A stretch of 37,706 nucleotides of DNA from Planctomycetaceae bacterium (lineage in GTDB: Bacteria > Planctomycetota > Planctomycetia > Pirellulales > UBA1268), in NCBI GenBank assembly GCA_027486095.1, contig JAIXPT010000321.1, positions 1 to 37,706 on the forward strand, given 5' to 3'. The notes beneath the pieces are model-generated. The model searched no databases, had not been told where the DNA came from, and saw nothing but the letters and a program-made list of their open reading frames with translations. Shown here piece by piece: positions 5,858 to 37,087 of this stretch. Positions within the stretch are counted from its first letter, which is position 1; every line of letters begins with the position of its first letter. The position numbers and the translations under genes are program-made.

Positions 5858-8800
5858 TCATCGCCGGCGGCGTGCCAGCCAGCCGACGAGGCTGATGCCG
5901 ACTGCGGCCAGAGCGAGGGCCCCCGGCTCGGGCACCACGACCACGTTGGCGTTGATCGTGAGATTGCGGCGAGCGGAAGCGCCAGAGAGGTTTTGGTTGT
6001 CGAAGAACGACAGCGTGAACTGCTTGCTGAAGGCGCCCTGCCCCGACGGTGTGAACGAAAATGTGAACAGGCTGCTCGTGCCGCCAGCGGCAAGATTGTT
6101 GAAAGTCGAGAGGCCCGAGGCGAAGCCGCCGCCGTCAAGCGTCACGCCAGTGAAATCAAGCCCGGCGGTCTGGCCGGCGCCATACGTCTGGCTGGCAAGA
6201 TTCAGCAGGCTGTAGGTGAAGTTTTGCGTGCCAGATGACTCGTCGATCGACCCGAAATTGATTGTGAGCGCGTCCTGCGCGTAGGCATCGGTGATGCCAC
6301 TCGCGAGGAAGCCCGGCAGCGCATGATCGAGCACGTTCACGCTCACTGTGCCTGTGGCCGAGGTCACGCCGAAAGCGGTCGGGGCGTTCACGGTGAACGT
6401 GCCCTGCTGGGTGGCGCCGACCGACGTGCCGGTGAAGACGAGGCCGGAGATCGCGCCGCTCGGGCCGCCCGCGGCGGCCGTGCCGCTGCTCGTGCCGGCC
6501 AGGCTCGCCGAGAGCGAGCCCGAAGAGAAGCCAAGATTGGCACCGCCCGAGAGGGCGGAGTTGGCCACCGTGTAGGTGAAGGCTGCCGAGCCGCCGGTGA
6601 TGATCGAGACCGCGGGATTGGTCACGGTCACCGCGCCGAGGACGGCCCGCTGCTGGTAGTCGATCGACGTGGCAGAGGAAATCACCTGATAGGCGGCGCT
6701 CGTGCCAGTGATGCTCGCGAACGAGCCGGAGATCGACTGGGCCGAGAGCACGCGGTAAAGGCCGGCGGTCGAGCCGCTGCCGGCGAGGTCGAGCGTACCG
6801 TTGGTGAGCGTCATCGTGCCGGTGGCGGCCGTCAACACCGGGGCCGAGGTGCTCGTGGCCGCCAGCCGCAGCGTGCCGCCGGCGGAGCCGAAAGCCAGGC
6901 CGCCGATCGCGCCGGTGTAGCCACTCATGGCCAGCGTGCCCTGCGACGTGGCGTTGCCGAGGTTCACGACGGAGTTCGACGGGATCGCATTGGTGATGCC
7001 GTAGGCGAGCGTGCTCGACTCGATCACAAACGTGGGGCCGTTGTAGGTGTTGGCGGCCGAGAGCGTGACGCTCGACGTGCCGTCCACCAGGAGATCGCTC
7101 GCGCCCACGGTCGCGCCGCTGATCGTGCCGGTGACATTGAATGAGCCGCCGGTGAGCCGCAACACGGAGTTGTCTTTCGAGAGGTTGCCTGAGAGCGTGA
7201 GCAGGCCGCCGCCCGGGTTGCGGATGGTGCCCGTGCCGCTGCCGGCGGTGACGGTGATGTTCTTGCCGAAGGTGGCGGCGCCGCCGGTGTAGGTGAGTCC
7301 CGCCCCGCCGGCGATCGTCACGCCCGACGTCCCCTGCAGCGCGCTCGCGCCGCCAAACGAGAGAACGCCAGCGGTGATCGTCGTTGCGCCCGTAAACGTG
7401 TTAGTGCCGGAGAGGGCGAGCGTGCCAGACGTGGTCTTCACGAGATCGGCGCCGCCATTGATCTGATTGACGTTCCGCAGGCCGCCCGACTGGAAGTTGA
7501 CCGCGGCGATGCGGTTCGAGCCGCCGATGTTCTTGCCGCCCATGTCGAGCGTGCCGCCGTTGAGCGTGAGCGTGCTGTTGACGGTGCCAACGGTGGAGCT
7601 GATCGTGATGTCGCCGGCGAGCGTGACCGTACCGCCGTTGATGGTGAGCGACCCGGTGGAGGTGCCGCCTGCCGCCGAGGCGCCGGCCAGCACGAGGGAA
7701 GCGATGTTGACGGTGGTGGCGTTGCCGGCAATCGTGAGCGAGCCGGTGATGCCGCCGCCGGTTCCCGCCATCTGCGCCATTTGCACCACGCCGAGCGACG
7801 CGGTGTTTGCGAAGTTGCCGGTGCCGCTGCCGATCGTGACCGTGGCGGTCGGCACTGCGGCATTCGCTCCGCCCGTGCGGGTGCCGATCCTGAATGTGCC
7901 AGACTGGAGGGTCCCGGTGTCGAAGTTGAAGGCCGCAGAATAGTTGCTCCCTGGACCGCTGACATTGATCATGTCGATCGTCGAAAAGAGAAGGTCAGCG
8001 GAGTGGCCGGTGACGTCGAAGACGTTCGGTGACGTCACGGCACCAGTGGCGGGACCGTTCATCATGCTCAATCCGACGGCGCTGGCCCCGTCGGCACCGC
8101 GGATCCTGACGGTGCCGTTCGGCGTGTTGGCATTGAACTGCAGCACCCCCGAACTCCGCTGAGAACTGCCAATCTGAATCACGTTCGTATTGATCGTCTG
8201 CACTCCGTTACCGAGGATCAAACTACTCGTGCCGGAAACGCCGGAGCTATCGCCGATCGCGAGCATGCCCGCAGTCATCGTGCTCGTCGGGGCAAGGAAG
8301 AACGTGTTTGCCCGGCCGCTGCCATTAAAACCGAAACCTTCCGTCGAACCCACGCGGATGACACCCGTCGTACCGACGTTCACTGAAAACGTGCCGAGCC
8401 CACTCGTATCAAGTGTTGATTGGCCTGGGTCTTGCGAGTTGGTGTAGGTCGAACCTTGCCAGCCCACCTGGAAGGTACCGCCGCTCCTGCTCACATTCCA
8501 CGCGCCCCCCGTGCCGGACACCGTGAGACCCACGTTTTCAAAAACGAGCTGTGGCCCGATCACTACATCGCCGTTGGTCGTGAGCGTCCGGCCGTTGCCG
8601 ATCGTGATCGAGTTCGCAGTGCTGAGGCCATTCTGTGCAGTGAGCCCGCCGAACGTGACGCTCGAATTGGTGAGGTCGAGTGTGCGCAGGGTGCCGCCCG
8701 CGTTCGCACCAAAACCGACCGCGCCCGCAAGCGACGCGCCGTCTGGTAATACGAGCGTGCCCTGGTCGATCACGGTTCTGCCGGTGTAGTTGTTGGCCGT

Positions 8801-10600
8801 CGAACTGGTCACGCCCGTGAGCGAAAGGGTGCCGGAACCGAGCTTCACGACGCCGATCGCGCCGCCGCCGGAGCCGGTCGAGTCGGTGATCGTGTCTGTG
8901 ACAGAGAACGTGCTGCCCGTGTTCGTGGTGTCGAAGCCGATCGCGGACCCGGCTAACAGGCCGCCCGTCGTCACGGAGCCACCGAGGCCGCCAAGATTCG
9001 TGAGCAGCGTCGTGACATTGGCCACTGAGAACCCGCTGGCCCCGCCCACCCGGACGGCGAACGTCGCCCCGGAGGCTGCGGAGATGTTGGCGGCAGTCCA
9101 GTTGGCGGAGGTGCCGTCGTAGAGCGAGCTCGGCGCGGCGAATGTCAGGACGCCGTTGTTGATCGCGGTCGGGCCGGTGTAGAGGCCACGGCCTGAGAGC
9201 ACGAGCCCTCCAAAGCCCGATTTCGTCAGGCCCGTCGCGGAGGTGTTGTCGGCGATTGCCGATGCAATCTCGAAGCTTCTCTTCCAATTGGCTTGGGTGA
9301 CGACGAGGTCACCGCCGCTCGAACCGGCGATGGTGCCGCCGGTGATCAGGTTCGTCGAGCCTGACACGTTGTTCGTCACAAGGATTCCACCCGAGGCGAT
9401 CGTGTTGGAATTCACTAGCGTGAGCGTGATGGGGTTCGCGGTGTTAAACCGCAGGCTGTTGGGCGCGATCGCTGCCGACGGCGTGGCCGAGGCGTTCACG
9501 TCTACGTTGGCAGATGCATACCGCGACGCAACCGTGGAGGCGGTGCTGGAGAGCACAAACGTGGCCAGGCCGGTGATGGGGCTTGCCCCGTTCGCAACGG
9601 CCCAGGTGGTGGGTGCGAAGCCAGGGATTCGGGTTTGCCAGCCAAGGCTTGTATCACCGCCGAACGTGATGCCGCCGCTGAGAATGCCGTTGGTGTTGGC
9701 GGAGGAGGTGATGAACGTGCCAGAGGACTGGATCGTGAGCGTGGCGCCGCGGCTGCGCGTGATCGCGCCGAAGTTCATCGTTGTACGTGTGCCAGCGTTC
9801 ACCCCTTCCGATGCTGGGTTGCCCAGGGCGGCCACATAGGCCGCCCCGCCGGTAAGCGTGGTGCTGGCAAACGCCTGCGACACCGCGTCGGTTCGCTGAA
9901 TGAACAGGCTGCCGTTGCCGATCGACAGGGCGCTGGCCGGATTGATGGCTCCGGCAGTGGCATTGTCGCCGATCACCAGCGTGCCGCCCGTGATCGTCGT
10001 CGCGCCGGTGTAGGAACTCGAGCCGGTGAGAGCGACCAGGCCAAGGCCGGCCTTTGTGAGCCCCCTCGCCCCGCCCGTCTCGCTGATCACGCCAGAGATC
10101 GTCAGTGAGTTTGGAGAGCGGTTGGTGATCGTCAGATTATCAGCGAGCGTGAACGGGGCGGAGATCGTGTTTGCGGCGCTCGTCGCGACCTGCGAGATGC
10201 TCGCACCGCTACCACTGTTGTTGAACGTGAGCGTGCCGCCGGTGGTCGTGGCGAGCGTGAACGAGTGCGAGGCGTTCGTGTCGCCGATGGTCAGCGTGCC
10301 GAGCGTGACGTTTGTGTTGATCGTCACCGTGGCGCTGGTCGTGATGTTGTTGACGAGGCCGACCACGTCGCCGGCGGCGGTGCCGGGAACGGCGGCCGGC
10401 GTCCAATTGCTAGCCGTATTCCAACTGCCATTGCCGTTGGCGATCCACGAGCCATTCGCTGCGAGTGCTCGCTCTGATCCGCAAAGAATCGCGAGCGCTA
10501 ACGCGAGTGACGCAGTCAGCGAAGCGGCGACCGAATGCCCCCGAAGCCGTCGGGTGTCATGACAGTGTGCGGGATCGAGATGGCGGTTTGCAGCGGTCAT
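5858..10600 (-). CDS. giant PEP-CTERM protein with autotransporter-type beta-strand repeats
   Basis: This 1580-residue surface or secreted protein has an N-terminal signal (ASLTASLALALAILCGSERALA). It is followed by many Gly/Thr/Ser/Asn-rich repeats of the autotransporter-associated beta-strand type, such as SSYTGATTITGGTLVIGD and NTFTGATTITAGVLSFGG, which predict a long beta-helix. The C-terminal domain contains NFGSIDESSGTQNFTYSLLNL, and the protein ends with VPEPG near residue 1556, a hydrophobic helix and RRRR. That is a PEP-CTERM sorting signal, recognised by an exosortase not encoded here. There is no outer-membrane barrel, so this is not a classical autotransporter. The ATG at 10600 is supported by GAGGAG seven bases upstream; in-frame codons up to 10792 lack a signal peptide. 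It is divergent from the ECF sigma gene. Confidence 0.9.
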   Translation of the reverse strand: MTAANRHLDPAHCHDTRRLRGHSVAASLTASLALALAILCGSERALAANGSWIANGNGSWNTASNWTPAAVPGTAAGDVVGLVNNITTSATVTINTNVTLGTLTIGDTNASHSFTLATTTGGTLTFNNSGSGASISQVATSAANTISAPFTLADNLTITNRSPNSLTISGVISETGGARGLTKAGLGLVALTGSSSYTGATTITGGTLVIGDNATAGAINPASALSIGNGSLFIQRTDAVSQAFASTTLTGGAAYVAALGNPASEGVNAGTRTTMNFGAITRSRGATLTIQSSGTFITSSANTNGILSGGITFGGDTSLGWQTRIPGFAPTTWAVANGASPITGLATFVLSSTASTVASRYASANVDVNASATPSAAIAPNSLRFNTANPITLTLVNSNTIASGGILVTNNVSGSTNLITGGTIAGSSGGDLVVTQANWKRSFEIASAIADNTSATGLTKSGFGGLVLSGRGLYTGPTAINNGVLTFAAPSSLYDGTSANWTAANISAASGATFAVRVGGASGFSVANVTTLLTNLGGLGGSVTTGGLLAGSAIGFDTTNTGSTFSVTDTITDSTGSGGGAIGVVKLGSGTLSLTGVTSSTANNYTGRTVIDQGTLVLPDGASLAGAVGFGANAGGTLRTLDLTNSSVTFGGLTAQNGLSTANSITIGNGRTLTTNGDVVIGPQLVFENVGLTVSGTGGAWNVSRSGGTFQVGWQGSTYTNSQDPGQSTLDTSGLGTFSVNVGTTGVIRVGSTEGFGFNGSGRANTFFLAPTSTMTAGMLAIGDSSGVSGTSSLILGNGVQTINTNVIQIGSSQRSSGVLQFNANTPNGTVRIRGADGASAVGLSMMNGPATGAVTSPNVFDVTGHSADLLFSTIDMINVSGPGSNYSAAFNFDTGTLQSGTFRIGTRTGGANAAVPTATVTIGSGTGNFANTASLGVVQMAQMAGTGGGITGSLTIAGNATTVNIASLVLAGASAAGGTSTGSLTINGGTVTLAGDITISSTVGTVNSTLTLNGGTLDMGGKNIGGSNRIAAVNFQSGGLRNVNQINGGADLVKTTSGTLALSGTNTFTGATTITAGVLSFGGASALQGTSGVTIAGGAGLTYTGGAATFGKNITVTAGSGTGTIRNPGGGLLTLSGNLSKDNSVLRLTGGSFNVTGTISGATVGASDLLVDGTSSVTLSAANTYNGPTFVIESSTLAYGITNAIPSNSVVNLGNATSQGTLAMSGYTGAIGGLAFGSAGGTLRLAATSTSAPVLTAATGTMTLTNGTLDLAGSGSTAGLYRVLSAQSISGSFASITGTSAAYQVISSATSIDYQQRAVLGAVTVTNPAVSIITGGSAAFTYTVANSALSGGANLGFSSGSLSASLAGTSSGTAAAGGPSGAISGLVFTGTSVGATQQGTFTVNAPTAFGVTSATGTVSVNVLDHALPGFLASGITDAYAQDALTINFGSIDESSGTQNFTYSLLNLASQTYGAGQTAGLDFTGVTLDGGGFASGLSTFNNLAAGGTSSLFTFSFTPSGQGAFSKQFTLSFFDNQNLSGASARRNLTINANVVVVPEPGALALAAVGISLVGWLARRRR

Positions 10601-10790
10601 GATTCGCTCCTCAATAGTCATCAGCCCGGCGGGGACGTACGGAATGTGTTCCCGACCCACTAGCGAGAAGGGTAGCTGCGGATACGGTTTCCTGGAATCG
10701 TCGGTCTGCCGACTCATCAAAATTACGATGCCGCGCCTGGGAGGTCCGGTCGTGTGGTATTGATGGAAGCGACTTCCGGGGCTGGTGCAC

Positions 10791-11315
10791 ATGGCGAAGG
10801 CCGACCGCGATCATCACGACGAATTCCTCCGGCTCTTCATGGCCCATGAGGCCGGACTGCGCGGTTTTCTCCGCAGCCTTCTCTTCTCCCACGAGGAGGT
10901 GCGCGAGGTGCTCCAGGACACGGCCGTGGTGCTGTGGCGAAAATACGAGCCGGGGATGACGCACGACGCCTTCGGCCGCTGGGCTTTCGGCGTAGCGCGG
11001 ATGGAGACGCTCGCCTTCAGGCGGGATCGGGCCCGCGACCGCCATGTGTTCGGCGACGACATTCACGAGCTGCTGGAGCAGGCTGCCGTGGCCCGGGCGC
11101 CGGCAGACGACGACCGGCGGACCGCCCTCGAGGCCTGCCTCCAGAAACTTCCGCCCGACAAGCTCCAGCTCGTGATGGCGGCTTACGCGCCCGACGCCCG
11201 CATCGACGAAGTGGCCAAGAGCCTCGGCCGCACGGCCATGGCCGTCTACAAATCGCTGCACCGCATTCGCATGGGGCTCGCCGAGTGCATCGAGAAGACG
11301 ATGGCCGCGTCCTGA
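10791..11315 (+). CDS. ECF-type RNA polymerase sigma factor
   Basis: This 174-residue protein matches small extracytoplasmic-function sigma factors. Sigma region 2 covers roughly residues 8-78, with the motif EEVREVLQDTAVVLWRKY and then WAFGVARMETLAFRRD. Sigma region 4 covers roughly residues 105-165, with LPPDKLQLVMAAYAPDARIDEVAKSLGRTAMAVYKSLHRIR. This resembles the planctomycete/verrucomicrobial ECF group usually encoded before a FecR-like anti-sigma gene. Such a gene lies downstream here, but a toxin-antitoxin pair separates them. The ATG at 10791 is preferred; a GTG at 10785 in the same frame adds two residues. No clear Shine-Dalgarno site precedes it. The gene is divergent from the PEP-CTERM gene with 190 bases between them, so it may regulate that gene, which is inference. 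Confidence 0.88.
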   Translation: MAKADRDHHDEFLRLFMAHEAGLRGFLRSLLFSHEEVREVLQDTAVVLWRKYEPGMTHDAFGRWAFGVARMETLAFRRDRARDRHVFGDDIHELLEQAAVARAPADDDRRTALEACLQKLPPDKLQLVMAAYAPDARIDEVAKSLGRTAMAVYKSLHRIRMGLAECIEKTMAAS

Positions 11316-13715: not shown

Positions 13716-15937
13716 ATGAGAAACCGGGTGCCGCTCTTTGCGCTGCTCCTCGTCGCAGCGACACCGGCCCTGGCTGTCGAACTCCGCCTGACGGCTCCCG
13801 CCGATTATCAAGTTGTCCAACGCATTACCCCGGGCACAGGGGTCGTGCGGATTGCCGGCGAATTGTCGGAGCCGGCGCCGGCAGAGGCCACGGTCGAGGC
13901 ACGCGTGCTCGATGGTCGATCGGAGCCGGTGTGGCGGGCGATCGGTGTCGTGGCCGATCGGAAGGTTTCCGGGGCGATCACAGTGCCTGCCGGAGGATGG
14001 TGGACGCTCGACGTGCGCGTGGTGCACGACCGCGTGGAGCTTGCCCGCAGCACGGTCGCACACATCGGCGTGGGCGAGGTGTTTGTCGTCGCGGGGCAGT
14101 CGAACTCAGCGAATCATGGCGCGGATCGGCAGTCGACCCGCACGCGGCGGGTGGCGGCATTCGACGGAACGGCCTGGCGGCTGGCCGATGATCCGCAGCC
14201 GGGCGCGAGCGGAAGCGGAGGTAGCTTCATGCCGCCGCTCGGCGACGCGCTCGTGGAGCAACTCGGCGTTCCCGTGGGGTTCATCCCGTGTGGCATCGGG
14301 GCCACGAGCGCGCGGGAGTGGCTGCCCAAGGGCACGGCGTTTCCCGCCCCGCCCACAATCGAGAGCCGCGTGACGCGCACGGCAGCGGGTGGCTGAGCGA
14401 GCAACGGCGATGCATACGGCCAGTTCGTAGCCCGCATGAAAGCGGTCGGGCCGCGAGGGTTTCGCGCCGTGCTCTGGCACCAAGGGGAAAGCGATGCGAA
14501 TCAGCAGGATGCGTCGCGCACGCTGCCGGGCGAGCTCTACAGCCGCTACCTCACCCAAGTGATTCATGACTCTCGGCGCGACATTGGCTGGGGCGTTCCC
14601 TGGTTTGTCGCGCAGGCGAGCTACCACGGGCCGGACGACCGCGGCAGCGACGACATCCGGGCGGCCCAGGCCTCGCTCTGGAAAAATGGCATCGCCCTCG
14701 AAGGGCCCGACACCGACGCCCTCGGCCCGGAGTTTCGTGAGCAGGACGGGCGGGGAGTGCACTTCAGCGGCGCGGGCTTGCGGGCCCACGCCGTGGCCTG
14801 GGCGAAGAAGATCGCCCCGTGGATTGCGGCCCAGTTCACCGCTCCGCGGAAGCGCGACGGCGGCACGGAGTGGTCGCGGTTCGAGCAGTTGCCCGAATGC
14901 CATGCCATTGGATGGGTGCGCAGGAACGTGGCGTCGAGTGGGACCGGCCGCTGGGACGGCGTGCTCGACGAGGCGAAGCGGGGCACGCCGTCGCCGCAGC
15001 AGGCCGTGGAGCGAAACTGGGCGTTGGATATTTCTGATGATATGTGGCGGGCCACCGTCGAGAAGCAGGGCGAGGGGCTGCGCGAGGAAGTGGCGTTTGA
15101 ACTGTGGGTGCCCGACGGGGCCGATGTGCTGCGAGGGATCGTGGTGATGTCGGGCCACGGCAGCGGCGGCGGGCTATTCAAGCGGCAGGATCTGCGGGCG
15201 CTCGCCCGCGAGCTTCGGCTCGCGCTCTTCGTGTTCAATGGCAACCCGATGCAGCGTGGGTTTTGGCCGCGGAGCCTGCTCTTCGAGCAGCTGAAGGCGT
15301 TTGGCGCCATTTCCGGCCACCCCGAGCTTGCGCACGCGCTGCTCTTTCTCTACGGCCACTCCAACGGCACCGGGTTTTCGGCGGTGTTTGCGGCGGGCGC
15401 CCCGGAGCGGGTGTGGGGATGGTTGTCGATGCGGCCGGGGATCACGTTTCAGGTGTATCAGCCCGGGGCCGCCCGCGTGCCGGGGCTCGTGATCTTCGGT
15501 GTGAACGACGTTTTTTTGCCCGGCCGTCGCGAGAGGAAAACCTCGCCGTCGTGCCGGCGATGCGGAAGCAACACGAGGCCGTCTGGAACATGGCCGTCGA
15601 GGCCGACACGGGGCACGGCCCGGGAGAGAAAACCTGGCCGCTCGTCTTTTCGTTTTTGCGACACACGTTCGCCGCGCGGGTGCCCGCCGATGCCGATCCG
15701 CGGCAGGAGCCGGTGACGCTCACCACGCTCGCGGCCGATCGCGGCTTCCTCGGCCAGAACTGGGACGTGGCGAAGGGTGGCCATCAAACGCTCATGGTAT
15801 CGCCGTTCGCCGAGTTCACCGGCGACAAGTCGGCCGCCTCGTGGCTCGTGAATGCCGCCTACGCCGCCGACTGGCAGGCCTTTCAGCGCAACGGCGAGAT
15901 CGCTTCTCCAGCGAGGGCTGCATCTGCGGCCCGCTGA
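13716..15937 (+). pseudogene. two-domain exported esterase, disrupted by in-frame TGA and -1 frameshift
   Basis: The reconstructed product is about 740 residues. After a signal peptide (FALLLVAATPALA) comes a sialate O-acetylesterase-like SGNH domain with block-I motif VVAGQSNSANHG (Ser129) and, after the break, AVLWHQGESDA. The C-terminal half is an alpha/beta-hydrolase-like domain with nucleophile elbow GHSNGTG (Ser549). Two lesions are visible. TGA at 14394-14396 (codon 227) interrupts the frame, and the same frame resumes with family-like sequence (ASNGDAYGQFVARMKAVG); relatives often have Trp near here. At the run of seven T at 15511-15517 the homologous sequence moves to the -1 frame (FFARPSREENLAVVP onward) and continues to a TGA at 15935. 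Pseudogene is the simplest reading; assembly error or recoding are alternatives. Confidence 0.8.
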
Positions 15938-15965
15938 CACCGTTCCGTAATGCTTGGTACGCTCG

Positions 15966-16940
15966 TCATACCCAGCGGTAGGCCGCGCGGGAGGTGTCGG
16001 TGAACAACCAACGCTCGGCTTCCGGGCCGTGGGATCGTGCGAAGGCCGCCACGATGGCGTGCACTGTCGCATAGTCGGCTGCGCGGTCCGACACCGGCCA
16101 GTTGCTGCCATACATGAGCCGCTCAGGGCCGAACGCCTTCCATACGGCCGCCAGCCACGGCTCGAAGAACGCGGGATCACGAGGGGCCTGGGCGGGCTTC
16201 ATCGACTGGGCCGTGCTCTCCACGAGCCCCGATGCTTTCATGAACACATTCGGGAGCCGGGCGACTCGCTCGATGGCGGCCAGCCATTCGGGCAGCGGCC
16301 CATCCTTGGAAATCGGCGTGTTGCCCATGTGGTCGAGCGCGATGCGGAGCGCGGGAAACCGCGCGGCCACGGCTTCGGCGGCGGCGAACGCTCGGCCGCC
16401 GTTGATGTCGAGCGCGAGGCCGTGATCAGCCAGGCGAGCGACGCGGGAGCGATAGTCGATGTCGTCGAGGCCGGTGAGAAGTTTGTCGCCGTTGACCCGG
16501 ATGCCTCGAAACAGCCTGTGCTTTGCGAATCGGTCGATGAGTGTGGCTGCCCTCTCGTCTTCGAGCGGCAGGTTGCCCACAACGCCCACGATCCCTGGCA
16601 TCGCTCGAAACTGCGCGGCATACCGGTCGGCGAGATCAAGGAGCCACTGGTTGTCTTCCACCCAGGGGCTCGCCTCGACGACGATGGCCCCGGCGGGGCC
16701 AAGTGGCGCCACGAGCTGCTGCCATTCGCTCGGCAGCGCGCGGCGATACAGAACCTCATCCGTCTTGGCAGGCCAGGGCACGCCCTCGGGCCGCGTGGGA
16801 TCGTAGAAATGGACATGCGTGTCGATGAACGGCACGACAGGCACGTCGGCTGCCTGAGATGGATTCGCCAAGGTCGTGGCGGACACGAGCCCGAGCGTGT
16901 GCTTGAGAACATCGCGTCGTGGGCAAGGGGAACGGATCAT
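15966..16940 (-). CDS. Tat-exported amidohydrolase (lactonase-like, Amidohydro_2)
   Basis: This 324-residue TIM-barrel metal hydrolase belongs to the amidohydrolase-2 family, which includes L-fuconolactonase and 2-pyrone-4,6-dicarboxylate lactonase. Visible motifs are the metal-binding HxH in IDTHVHFYDP (His42, His44), a HMGN motif near residue 199 (ALDHMGNTP) and a late GSNWP motif (RLMYGSNWPVSD), all typical of the family. The N-terminus CPRRDVLKHTLGLVSATTLA resembles a Tat signal. I chose the ATG at 16940; the open frame continues far upstream but that part is antisense to the dehydratase gene. It is divergent from that dehydratase across a 90-base gap holding a perfect dyad. Lactone hydrolysis feeding the dehydratase is the likely role, which is inference. 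Confidence 0.83.
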   Translation of the reverse strand: MIRSPCPRRDVLKHTLGLVSATTLANPSQAADVPVVPFIDTHVHFYDPTRPEGVPWPAKTDEVLYRRALPSEWQQLVAPLGPAGAIVVEASPWVEDNQWLLDLADRYAAQFRAMPGIVGVVGNLPLEDERAATLIDRFAKHRLFRGIRVNGDKLLTGLDDIDYRSRVARLADHGLALDINGGRAFAAAEAVAARFPALRIALDHMGNTPISKDGPLPEWLAAIERVARLPNVFMKASGLVESTAQSMKPAQAPRDPAFFEPWLAAVWKAFGPERLMYGSNWPVSDRAADYATVHAIVAAFARSHGPEAERWLFTDTSRAAYRWV

Positions 16941-34237: not shown

Positions 34238-34462
34238 CGGTCGAAACTCCGGGCGGGAGGTTGACGAAACTGCGAAACCATCTGCCGCGATCGTAGCCGA
34301 GGAGCCAAAAAAACCCGGCCCATTTTGCCGGAAGCGTCAGTATCGGGCGGATGAGACCGGACGTAATTTAGCCATTGGGGTGGGTGAGGATTTTAAAACT
34401 CTTACGCCCCGCGGGCAATCGTGCGTCGCCAGTGGTTTCTCCGGCTTCAGGGGTATTCGCCA

Positions 34463-37087
34463 ATGATACGCGGGCCATTCATCCGGCCCTGGGTCGCCGC
34501 TCTTGTGTGCATTGCCGCCTTCTTGGGAAGTGTTGACCCCGCGCGGGCCGCGAATTCCACGTGGAGCCTCAACAACACGGGCACGTTTTCCGTCGTGGGG
34601 AATTGGAACGCCGGCGTTCCGGGGGCATCCGCGGGAACGACGAATACCGACCTCGCGACGTTTCAGCGGTCCGTAATCACCACGTCTCGAACGGTCGTCT
34701 TCGATGCCTCGACAAACCTGGGCGGCGTCTTGTTCGACAACAATTCGGCGGGGGCGAATGTCTTCAGCCTCACGGGCACGGCTGGCGGGGCGGCGACTTC
34801 CGGCACGCTCACGCTGTCGAGTGGCTGGCTGATCGCGAACAGCGGAACCGGCACTGGCAGCGGGGCGAATCTCATCGACGTGGCCACGTTGCTGATGGGA
34901 AGCGGCACGGTCCGCAATGACTTCGGGAGCAGTGTTTTCAATCTGGGGGTGAGCGCCGGCTCGAGCGCGAATGTCATCACCACGGGTTCAAATCTCGGTG
35001 CCATCGACCTCGTGCTCAGCGGGTCGAGCACCGGATCCAACCTGCAGGCGATGCGCATCAACCAGGCCGTGGGCACGACGCTTCGACTCGTCAAGGATGG
35101 GCCCGGTTTCTGGCAGTTGAATGGTCCCTCGTCTGGGGCGTCTGGGCTGACGGGCGGATTCCTGATGCGATCCGGCGCGGTGAGCATCGGGCGAAGCAGC
35201 GGCGCATCGCTCGGCACGGGGCCTGTCGTCATCGGTGATGCAGACAGCCCCGCAGGCGACCTGCGAATGGCGTTCGGCTCGAGTGTCACCATGTCGAACA
35301 ACGTGACGATTGCAGCCTCACCCGCCGCCAACGTGATCATCGAGCGGGGGGGCGGCAGCGGCGGCGGCACGCTCTCGGGCACGGTCACGCTCGCCCGCGA
35401 TCTCACCCTCAGGCAGGGCACTGCGGCGACGCAAACGCTCGCGCTGAGCGCGGCCAGCCTCGTCACGGGCGCCGGAAACCTGATCATCGGCGGCACGTTC
35501 GCCTCGCCCGGGGCCATCAACCTTCAGGGCCGAGTCAACATGACGGGCACCTTGAGCAATCAAAGCACGAACGCGACGGGGGTTGTGACCGTTTCGGGCA
35601 CGATCGGCAGCAACGTGACGGGCCTCGTACAGAACAGCCTGCGATCGAGGATGGTGCTTCAGTCGGCCAACACCTACGCCGGCCCCACGGTGATCCGCAG
35701 CGGCACGCTCGCGCTCGACGTGAATGGCGGTTTCGCATCCAGCCCCTCGATCATCGTCGGTGATGCCGGGTCATCGGGAGCGGTCCTCGACCTGACGGCG
35801 AAGACGGGCACATTTTCACTCGGCGCCGGCCAGACCGTGGGCGGCATCGGCACGGTCAACATCGGGGCGGGCAAGACTGTGTCATCCGTCGGCATCTGGG
35901 CCCCGGGCAACTCGATCGGGTCCAACACGGTCACCGGGAATCTCACACTCTCCGGAACGAGCCTTTTCGAACTTGGCACGCCGGGCAGTTCGACGACGAG
36001 CCCAGGCTCCTCCGACTTCACCTCCGTGTCGGAAGGATTGATCCTCGGCGGCAACCTCACCCTGCTCGATAATGCCGGCGCCAACTCGCAGGGGAGTTAT
36101 GGAGCCGGCTCCTATCGGCTGTTCACCGCCCCCACGCTGACCGGCACGTTTGCGACCGTGACGGCACCCGCTGGTGCCACGACCACCCGAGTCGCCATGG
36201 TCTACACGGCGGGCACCGCCTCGGGCCAGGGTGTCTTTGCCAATGTCTACAACCTCGCCGCGGCAAACACGATCTCGGGCACGATCGACTTCGGCACGGT
36301 GCTCGCGGGCACGCCTCTCTCGCACTCTGTCTCGATCGTGAACACCGCCCCGGCCGGCAGTTTCACCGAGAATCTCGATGCTGCGTTCGGCGCGCTCGCG
36401 GGCAACGCGACGACGAACAGCGGCTCTGTCAGCCTGCTTGCGGCCGGCGGCACGAGCGCTGCGATGAGCGTGGGGCTCGACAGTGCCGTCGCGGGTGGCA
36501 AGTCGGGCTCCGTGCAGGTGGACTTCGCGTCGAACGGCGACGGCACGAGCGGGCTGGGCGTTCTCAGCCTCGCTGCGCAGACGGTGAGCCTCACGGGCAC
36601 CGTGCTCGATCCGGCGTCGCCCAGCTGGACGAGCGGCTCGGCTTCGGCGGCAAGCCTGCTCATCGACCTCGGAGAGCACAATCAAAGCATCGGCACGTTC
36701 GGTCAGGGCTTCAGTATCTGGAACCTCGTCCAGACGGCCGGGTATACGGCGAATCTCGACCTCCTCACCATCACGTCGGGCACAGCCAACTCCGCCGCCA
36801 TCACCACCGATTTGGCCACATTCGCCGGCCTCGCGTCGGGCAGTTCGAATGGATTCAACGCCTCGCTCGCACTGGACACCGCAGGAATCTTCACGAACAC
36901 CTACACGCTCGCCTTCCGCAGCTCGAGCGGTGGCACGCAGTTCAACGACACTCCTCAGGACCTCACACTCACGGTGACGGGCGCGGTCATCGTTCCCGAG
37001 CCGGGTGCGATCGCGTTGGCCGGGCTGGGCATCGCGGGGGCCGGATGGTCCGCGTGGCGCAGGCGCCGGGTCATCAACCGCCGGTGA
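34463..37087 (+). CDS. second PEP-CTERM protein with autotransporter-type repeats
   Basis: This 874-residue protein has a signal peptide (WVAALVCIAAFLGSVDPARAA). After it come NSTWSLNNTGTFSVVGNWNAGVPG and repeated beta-strand units such as NTYAGPTVIRSGTLALDVNGG, the autotransporter-associated pattern. A late domain (LLIDLGEHNQSIGTFGQGFSIWNLVQ) matches the matching domain of the 1580-residue protein near its end. The protein closes with VPEPGAIALAGLGIAGAGW and RRRR, a PEP-CTERM signal near residue 844. There is no outer-membrane barrel, and attachment is presumably through an exosortase elsewhere. I chose the ATG at 34463, with AGGGG about ten bases upstream; GTG 34421 is an alternative that would delay the signal peptide. 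The upstream 225-base gap is divergent, and I see no confident promoter in it. Confidence 0.88.
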   Translation: MIRGPFIRPWVAALVCIAAFLGSVDPARAANSTWSLNNTGTFSVVGNWNAGVPGASAGTTNTDLATFQRSVITTSRTVVFDASTNLGGVLFDNNSAGANVFSLTGTAGGAATSGTLTLSSGWLIANSGTGTGSGANLIDVATLLMGSGTVRNDFGSSVFNLGVSAGSSANVITTGSNLGAIDLVLSGSSTGSNLQAMRINQAVGTTLRLVKDGPGFWQLNGPSSGASGLTGGFLMRSGAVSIGRSSGASLGTGPVVIGDADSPAGDLRMAFGSSVTMSNNVTIAASPAANVIIERGGGSGGGTLSGTVTLARDLTLRQGTAATQTLALSAASLVTGAGNLIIGGTFASPGAINLQGRVNMTGTLSNQSTNATGVVTVSGTIGSNVTGLVQNSLRSRMVLQSANTYAGPTVIRSGTLALDVNGGFASSPSIIVGDAGSSGAVLDLTAKTGTFSLGAGQTVGGIGTVNIGAGKTVSSVGIWAPGNSIGSNTVTGNLTLSGTSLFELGTPGSSTTSPGSSDFTSVSEGLILGGNLTLLDNAGANSQGSYGAGSYRLFTAPTLTGTFATVTAPAGATTTRVAMVYTAGTASGQGVFANVYNLAAANTISGTIDFGTVLAGTPLSHSVSIVNTAPAGSFTENLDAAFGALAGNATTNSGSVSLLAAGGTSAAMSVGLDSAVAGGKSGSVQVDFASNGDGTSGLGVLSLAAQTVSLTGTVLDPASPSWTSGSASAASLLIDLGEHNQSIGTFGQGFSIWNLVQTAGYTANLDLLTITSGTANSAAITTDLATFAGLASGSSNGFNASLALDTAGIFTNTYTLAFRSSSGGTQFNDTPQDLTLTVTGAVIVPEPGAIALAGLGIAGAGWSAWRRRRVINRR

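Follow-up and report, generated by a model that had tools for sequence, protein, structure and literature searches.

Organization of the esterase locus

The window, i.e. the whole stretch of 37,706 nucleotides from an uncultured planctomycete that was analysed, carries a SASA-type esterase gene on its forward strand (13716-15937), the reading frame of which is unbroken apart from the lesions listed in Table 1. The start of the 5' part resembles a signal peptide when judged by eye, and this part also encodes the SASA domain up to its middle, with the GQSNS motif (Ser129). The middle part contains the remainder of this domain with the motifs WHQGESD and VHFSG as well as the onset of an alpha/beta-hydrolase-like domain with the motif GHSNGT, and shares about 57-67% protein identity with full-length homologs. 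For the 3' part, the identity with homologs is 66-77%.

Table 1. Parts and lesions of the esterase gene and its neighbour gene
Feature	Position	Strand	Basis
Broken esterase gene, 5' part	13716..14393	+	Translation; Pfam SASA profile 2-104; motif position
In-frame TGA at residue 227; family residue TGG (Trp)	14394..14396	+	Homolog alignment
Middle part, same frame as 5' part	14397..15510	+	Pfam SASA profile 102-185; homolog identity; motif conservation
T7 run where the second lesion probably lies (frameshift by net loss of one base)	15511..15517	+	Homolog alignment
3' part in shifted frame, ARPSREENLAVV... to TGA stop	15518..15937	+	Homolog identity
Intact Amidohydro_2 neighbour gene	15966..16940	-	Pfam PF04909, full length

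Judged from its sequence, the gene encoded a presumably secreted member of a protein family with a length of about 740 residues, in which a SASA-type SGNH esterase domain is followed by an alpha/beta-hydrolase-like domain. As in the SASA family (PF03629), which consists of sialate O-acetylesterase-like carbohydrate esterases, GQSNS, WHQGESD, and the His of VHFSG are conserved in the first domain, which matches across the break. In contrast to this family, the window gene is cut by the TGA in mid-domain and is fused to a second, hydrolase-like domain. Intact two-domain SASA/hydrolase proteins from Verrucomicrobia and Planctomycetes (e.g. L032, L086, and L056) have the same domain order and about 57-67% identity over the full length, but their reading frames are uninterrupted, whereas the window copy has two lesions. 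A literature search for this two-domain family returned nothing specific to it, and an NCBIfam search yielded no useful match.

The second domain is classified as probably alpha/beta-hydrolase-like from its conserved motifs GHSNGT and TGHGPG. Since a Pfam search revealed no model for it at an E-value of 0.001, this domain may represent an unnamed family. Matches to the second domain without a SASA domain are found in many Verrucomicrobia (L063, L065, L066, and others).

The amidohydrolase gene downstream of the esterase gene was used as a synteny marker and as a control for selection. Together, the esterase (13917-15903) and the amidohydrolase (15953-16940) are closest to genome G079, which belongs to another genus, with 86-89% identity. 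The window's genus includes five other genomes, in which neither gene has a good match, apart from an 83-residue piece in G002 with 60% identity to the amidohydrolase; for the esterase, the matches in these genomes are weak and confined to the second domain. The gene pair may be a shared accessory island, or this distribution may reflect horizontal transfer or an effect of binning. Elsewhere in the window, an autotransporter-like repeat protein of 1644 residues is encoded at 5858-10792, with a C-terminus that appears PEP-CTERM-like by eye (VVPEPGALALAAVGISLVGWLARRRR), and a PEP-CTERM/PATR protein encoded at 34421-37087 resembles it.

The in-frame TGA

In the frame starting at 13716, the sequence ends with RVTRTAAGG before the TGA and continues with ASNGDAYGQFVARMKAVG after it. 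The SASA profile PF03629 is matched on both sides, with E-values of 7e-6 upstream and 3e-10 downstream. Because these matches cover adjoining profile positions, the sequence flanking the TGA is a single domain cut mid-way, which rules out a chance reading frame.

Homologs were gathered by scanning the contigs of the genome and related genomes. The codon aligned to the TGA is TGG in 60 of 66 homologs and a Phe codon (TTT or TTC) in three; the remaining three, with other codons, are distant or misaligned. Eight further homologs have a gap in this column and are not part of the 66. The TGA is a substitution within a non-repetitive stretch. All 30 full-length homologs, drawn from Verrucomicrobia and Planctomycetes, are read in one frame of about 700-740 codons with neither a stop nor a frameshift, and thus no homolog terminates at the position of the TGA. 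A natural end of the protein at residue 227 was rejected on these grounds. Three homologous loci (L007-L009) were flagged as having a TGA inside; their matches extend to about residue 378, which is near the ends of single-domain SASA homologs.

These results agree with the preliminary description of this DNA, which had proposed that the TGA interrupts a two-domain exported esterase with family-like sequence in the same frame on both sides and that it perhaps originated from TGG. The proposed comparison with homologs, including the search for natural ends at this point, found the homologs intact.

The frameshift in the hydrolase domain

According to the homolog alignment, the family frame follows that of 13716 up to about 15511-15527, beyond which it coincides with the frame of 15104. 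One base has been lost on balance at or close to the T7 run, which shifts the frame within the hydrolase domain. All 56 homologs displayed for this site continue in one frame with the sequence IFGEDDxFLARPSxEENLAV or a variant of it, and a T7-like run is present in none of them.

Broken and intact copies in related genomes

The nearest relative, L060 in genome G079, lies at the same locus. It shares 89% DNA identity with the window over 14444-15271, and the downstream amidohydrolase gene is 87% identical without gaps. Large deletions and several frameshifts have disrupted the esterase copy of L060. Missing from it are the counterpart of about 14005-14443 and the greater part of 15272-15669; it has additional single-base indels, and an isolated piece of the hydrolase domain is located 1.5 kb away. 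The segment that would bear the TGA is among those deleted, so L060 holds no record of whether the TGA was shared with the window. In a further copy within the same family, L003 in G023, the frame is shifted near residue 425, and similarity is lost beyond about residue 500. Judged by these alignments, the esterase gene appears to have been broken repeatedly and independently in three planctomycete genomes that belong to a single family.

In L060, about 1.5 kb without a match in the window (6084-7564) separate the esterase remnant from the amidohydrolase gene. This segment contains a long open frame on the minus strand (GPRQVGKST..., LVLDEIQKV), which by eye has the look of an AAA_14/DUF4143-type ATPase.

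An intact copy, L132, is found in another genus of the family to which the window genome belongs. In this family, the copies in G083 and G070 (apparently identical to L056 and L054) and in G091 are also open across both lesion sites. A contig scan of the window genome revealed no second copy of the esterase.

Selection and age of the probable decay

The differences between the window and L060 are distributed over the three codon positions as 25/24/85, each of 397 positions. In the same comparison, the NG86 method gives a dN/dS ratio of about 0.17 in the esterase block, as compared with 0.23 in the intact neighbour gene. Most of this divergence would thus have built up under selection, with the lesions arising later in each lineage; the decay is regarded as recent because the differences still cluster at third codon positions. 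Where at least 96% of the other homologs agree at a site, the window copy deviates 21 times, compared with at most 10 times in any intact homolog. Thirteen of the departures can be compared with L060, and 11 of these are common to both copies. The bias toward third positions is still present although two Trp residues that are otherwise invariant in the family, Trp 422 and Trp 437, have been lost, in the window copy only. This loss may be a weak sign of relaxed selection, and its combination with the persisting bias would fit a recent loss of the gene.

Probable pseudogene formation and alternative explanations

The esterase gene is most probably a recently inactivated pseudogene, an ordinary dead gene resulting from a TGG-to-TGA mutation and an indel (probability about 0.86). 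Homology to an intact family is found on each side of the lesions, the TGA and the frameshift are missing from all 30 full-length homologs, and two independent lesions lie within one gene. In the proposed course of events, a point mutation would have turned the conserved Trp codon at residue 227 into TGA, where RF2 would end translation. The resulting fragment of 226 residues would retain the block with the catalytic Ser and lack both the WHQGESD block and the catalytic His. Readthrough of the TGA would not rescue the hydrolase domain, since the separate loss of one base near the T7 run would still inactivate it. The gene shares the common traits of bacterial pseudogenes formed by nonsense mutation and indel, namely lesions of recent origin, homologs that are intact, and relatives in which the decay is independent, and shows no notable difference from them.

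The main rival to the pseudogene is an error in the assembly or consensus, or a mixture of strains, in this metagenome-assembled genome, so that the living gene would be intact at one or both sites. The genome consists of 456 contigs with 77% completeness and 3.2% contamination, and the second lesion is located at a homopolymer. The window-L060 substitution pattern, which is still that of a selected gene, weighs against a pseudogene, and taken alone it would also fit a sequencing error. Such an error is nevertheless unlikely. The TGA is a substitution outside any repeat, and two errors would be needed in one gene whose nearest ortholog is broken too. Real decay is favoured because of these two lesions and because the neighbouring genes with Pfam matches encode full-length or near-full-length domains and appear intact. 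We infer that the lesions belong to the living genome rather than to the assembly and that the gene yields no functional product. It is considerably less probable still that the gene has been split into two separately translated, functional fragments (13716-14396 and 14436 onward). An ATG is present at 14436, and stand-alone second domains are known elsewhere (e.g. L063 and L066), but the break separates the catalytic blocks within the SASA domain from each other, and the second fragment is frameshifted and, by eye, without a signal peptide.

Programmed recoding, with readthrough of the TGA and slippage of the ribosome or polymerase on the T7 run, would restore the full protein. The family frame would be regained if the -1 slip took place on T TTT TTG, and family-like sequence flanks the TGA on both sides. 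Two separate events would be required, and both the TGA and the T run are missing from the homologs. The structure of the RNA is ordinary at both the TGA and the T7 site (z of 1.23 and 0.24, respectively). A programmed -1 frameshift was rejected, as the slippery site is not conserved (0 of 56 homologs). SelB remained below the cut-off (best match 167 bits versus 242), and the only tRNA-Sec match above threshold is a tRNA-Ser(UGA) according to ARAGORN; neither component was found in the genome, which at 77% completeness is no proof of their absence. A selenoprotein was rejected on the basis of these searches and of the aligned residue, which is Trp in 60 of 66 homologs and not Cys or Sec. A genetic code with TGA for Trp, as in table 4, was rejected as well, since RF2 is encoded in the genome and TGA is the commonest stop, ending 13 of the 19 window genes checked. 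Recoding is therefore highly improbable, and there is hardly any chance of a doubly recoded esterase that reads the TGA as an amino acid, slips by -1 on the T7 run, and yields a low level of full-length protein. The second downstream lesion that the preliminary description had noted is real, and its preference for decay over recoding is upheld by the independent wreckage of the nearest ortholog and by the positive evidence against recoding.

Consequences for annotation and function

In annotations, the esterase gene should be listed as a pseudogene rather than as a pair of short esterases. Its breakage in three genomes of one family suggests that its function is dispensable there, with intact copies being present elsewhere in the same family.
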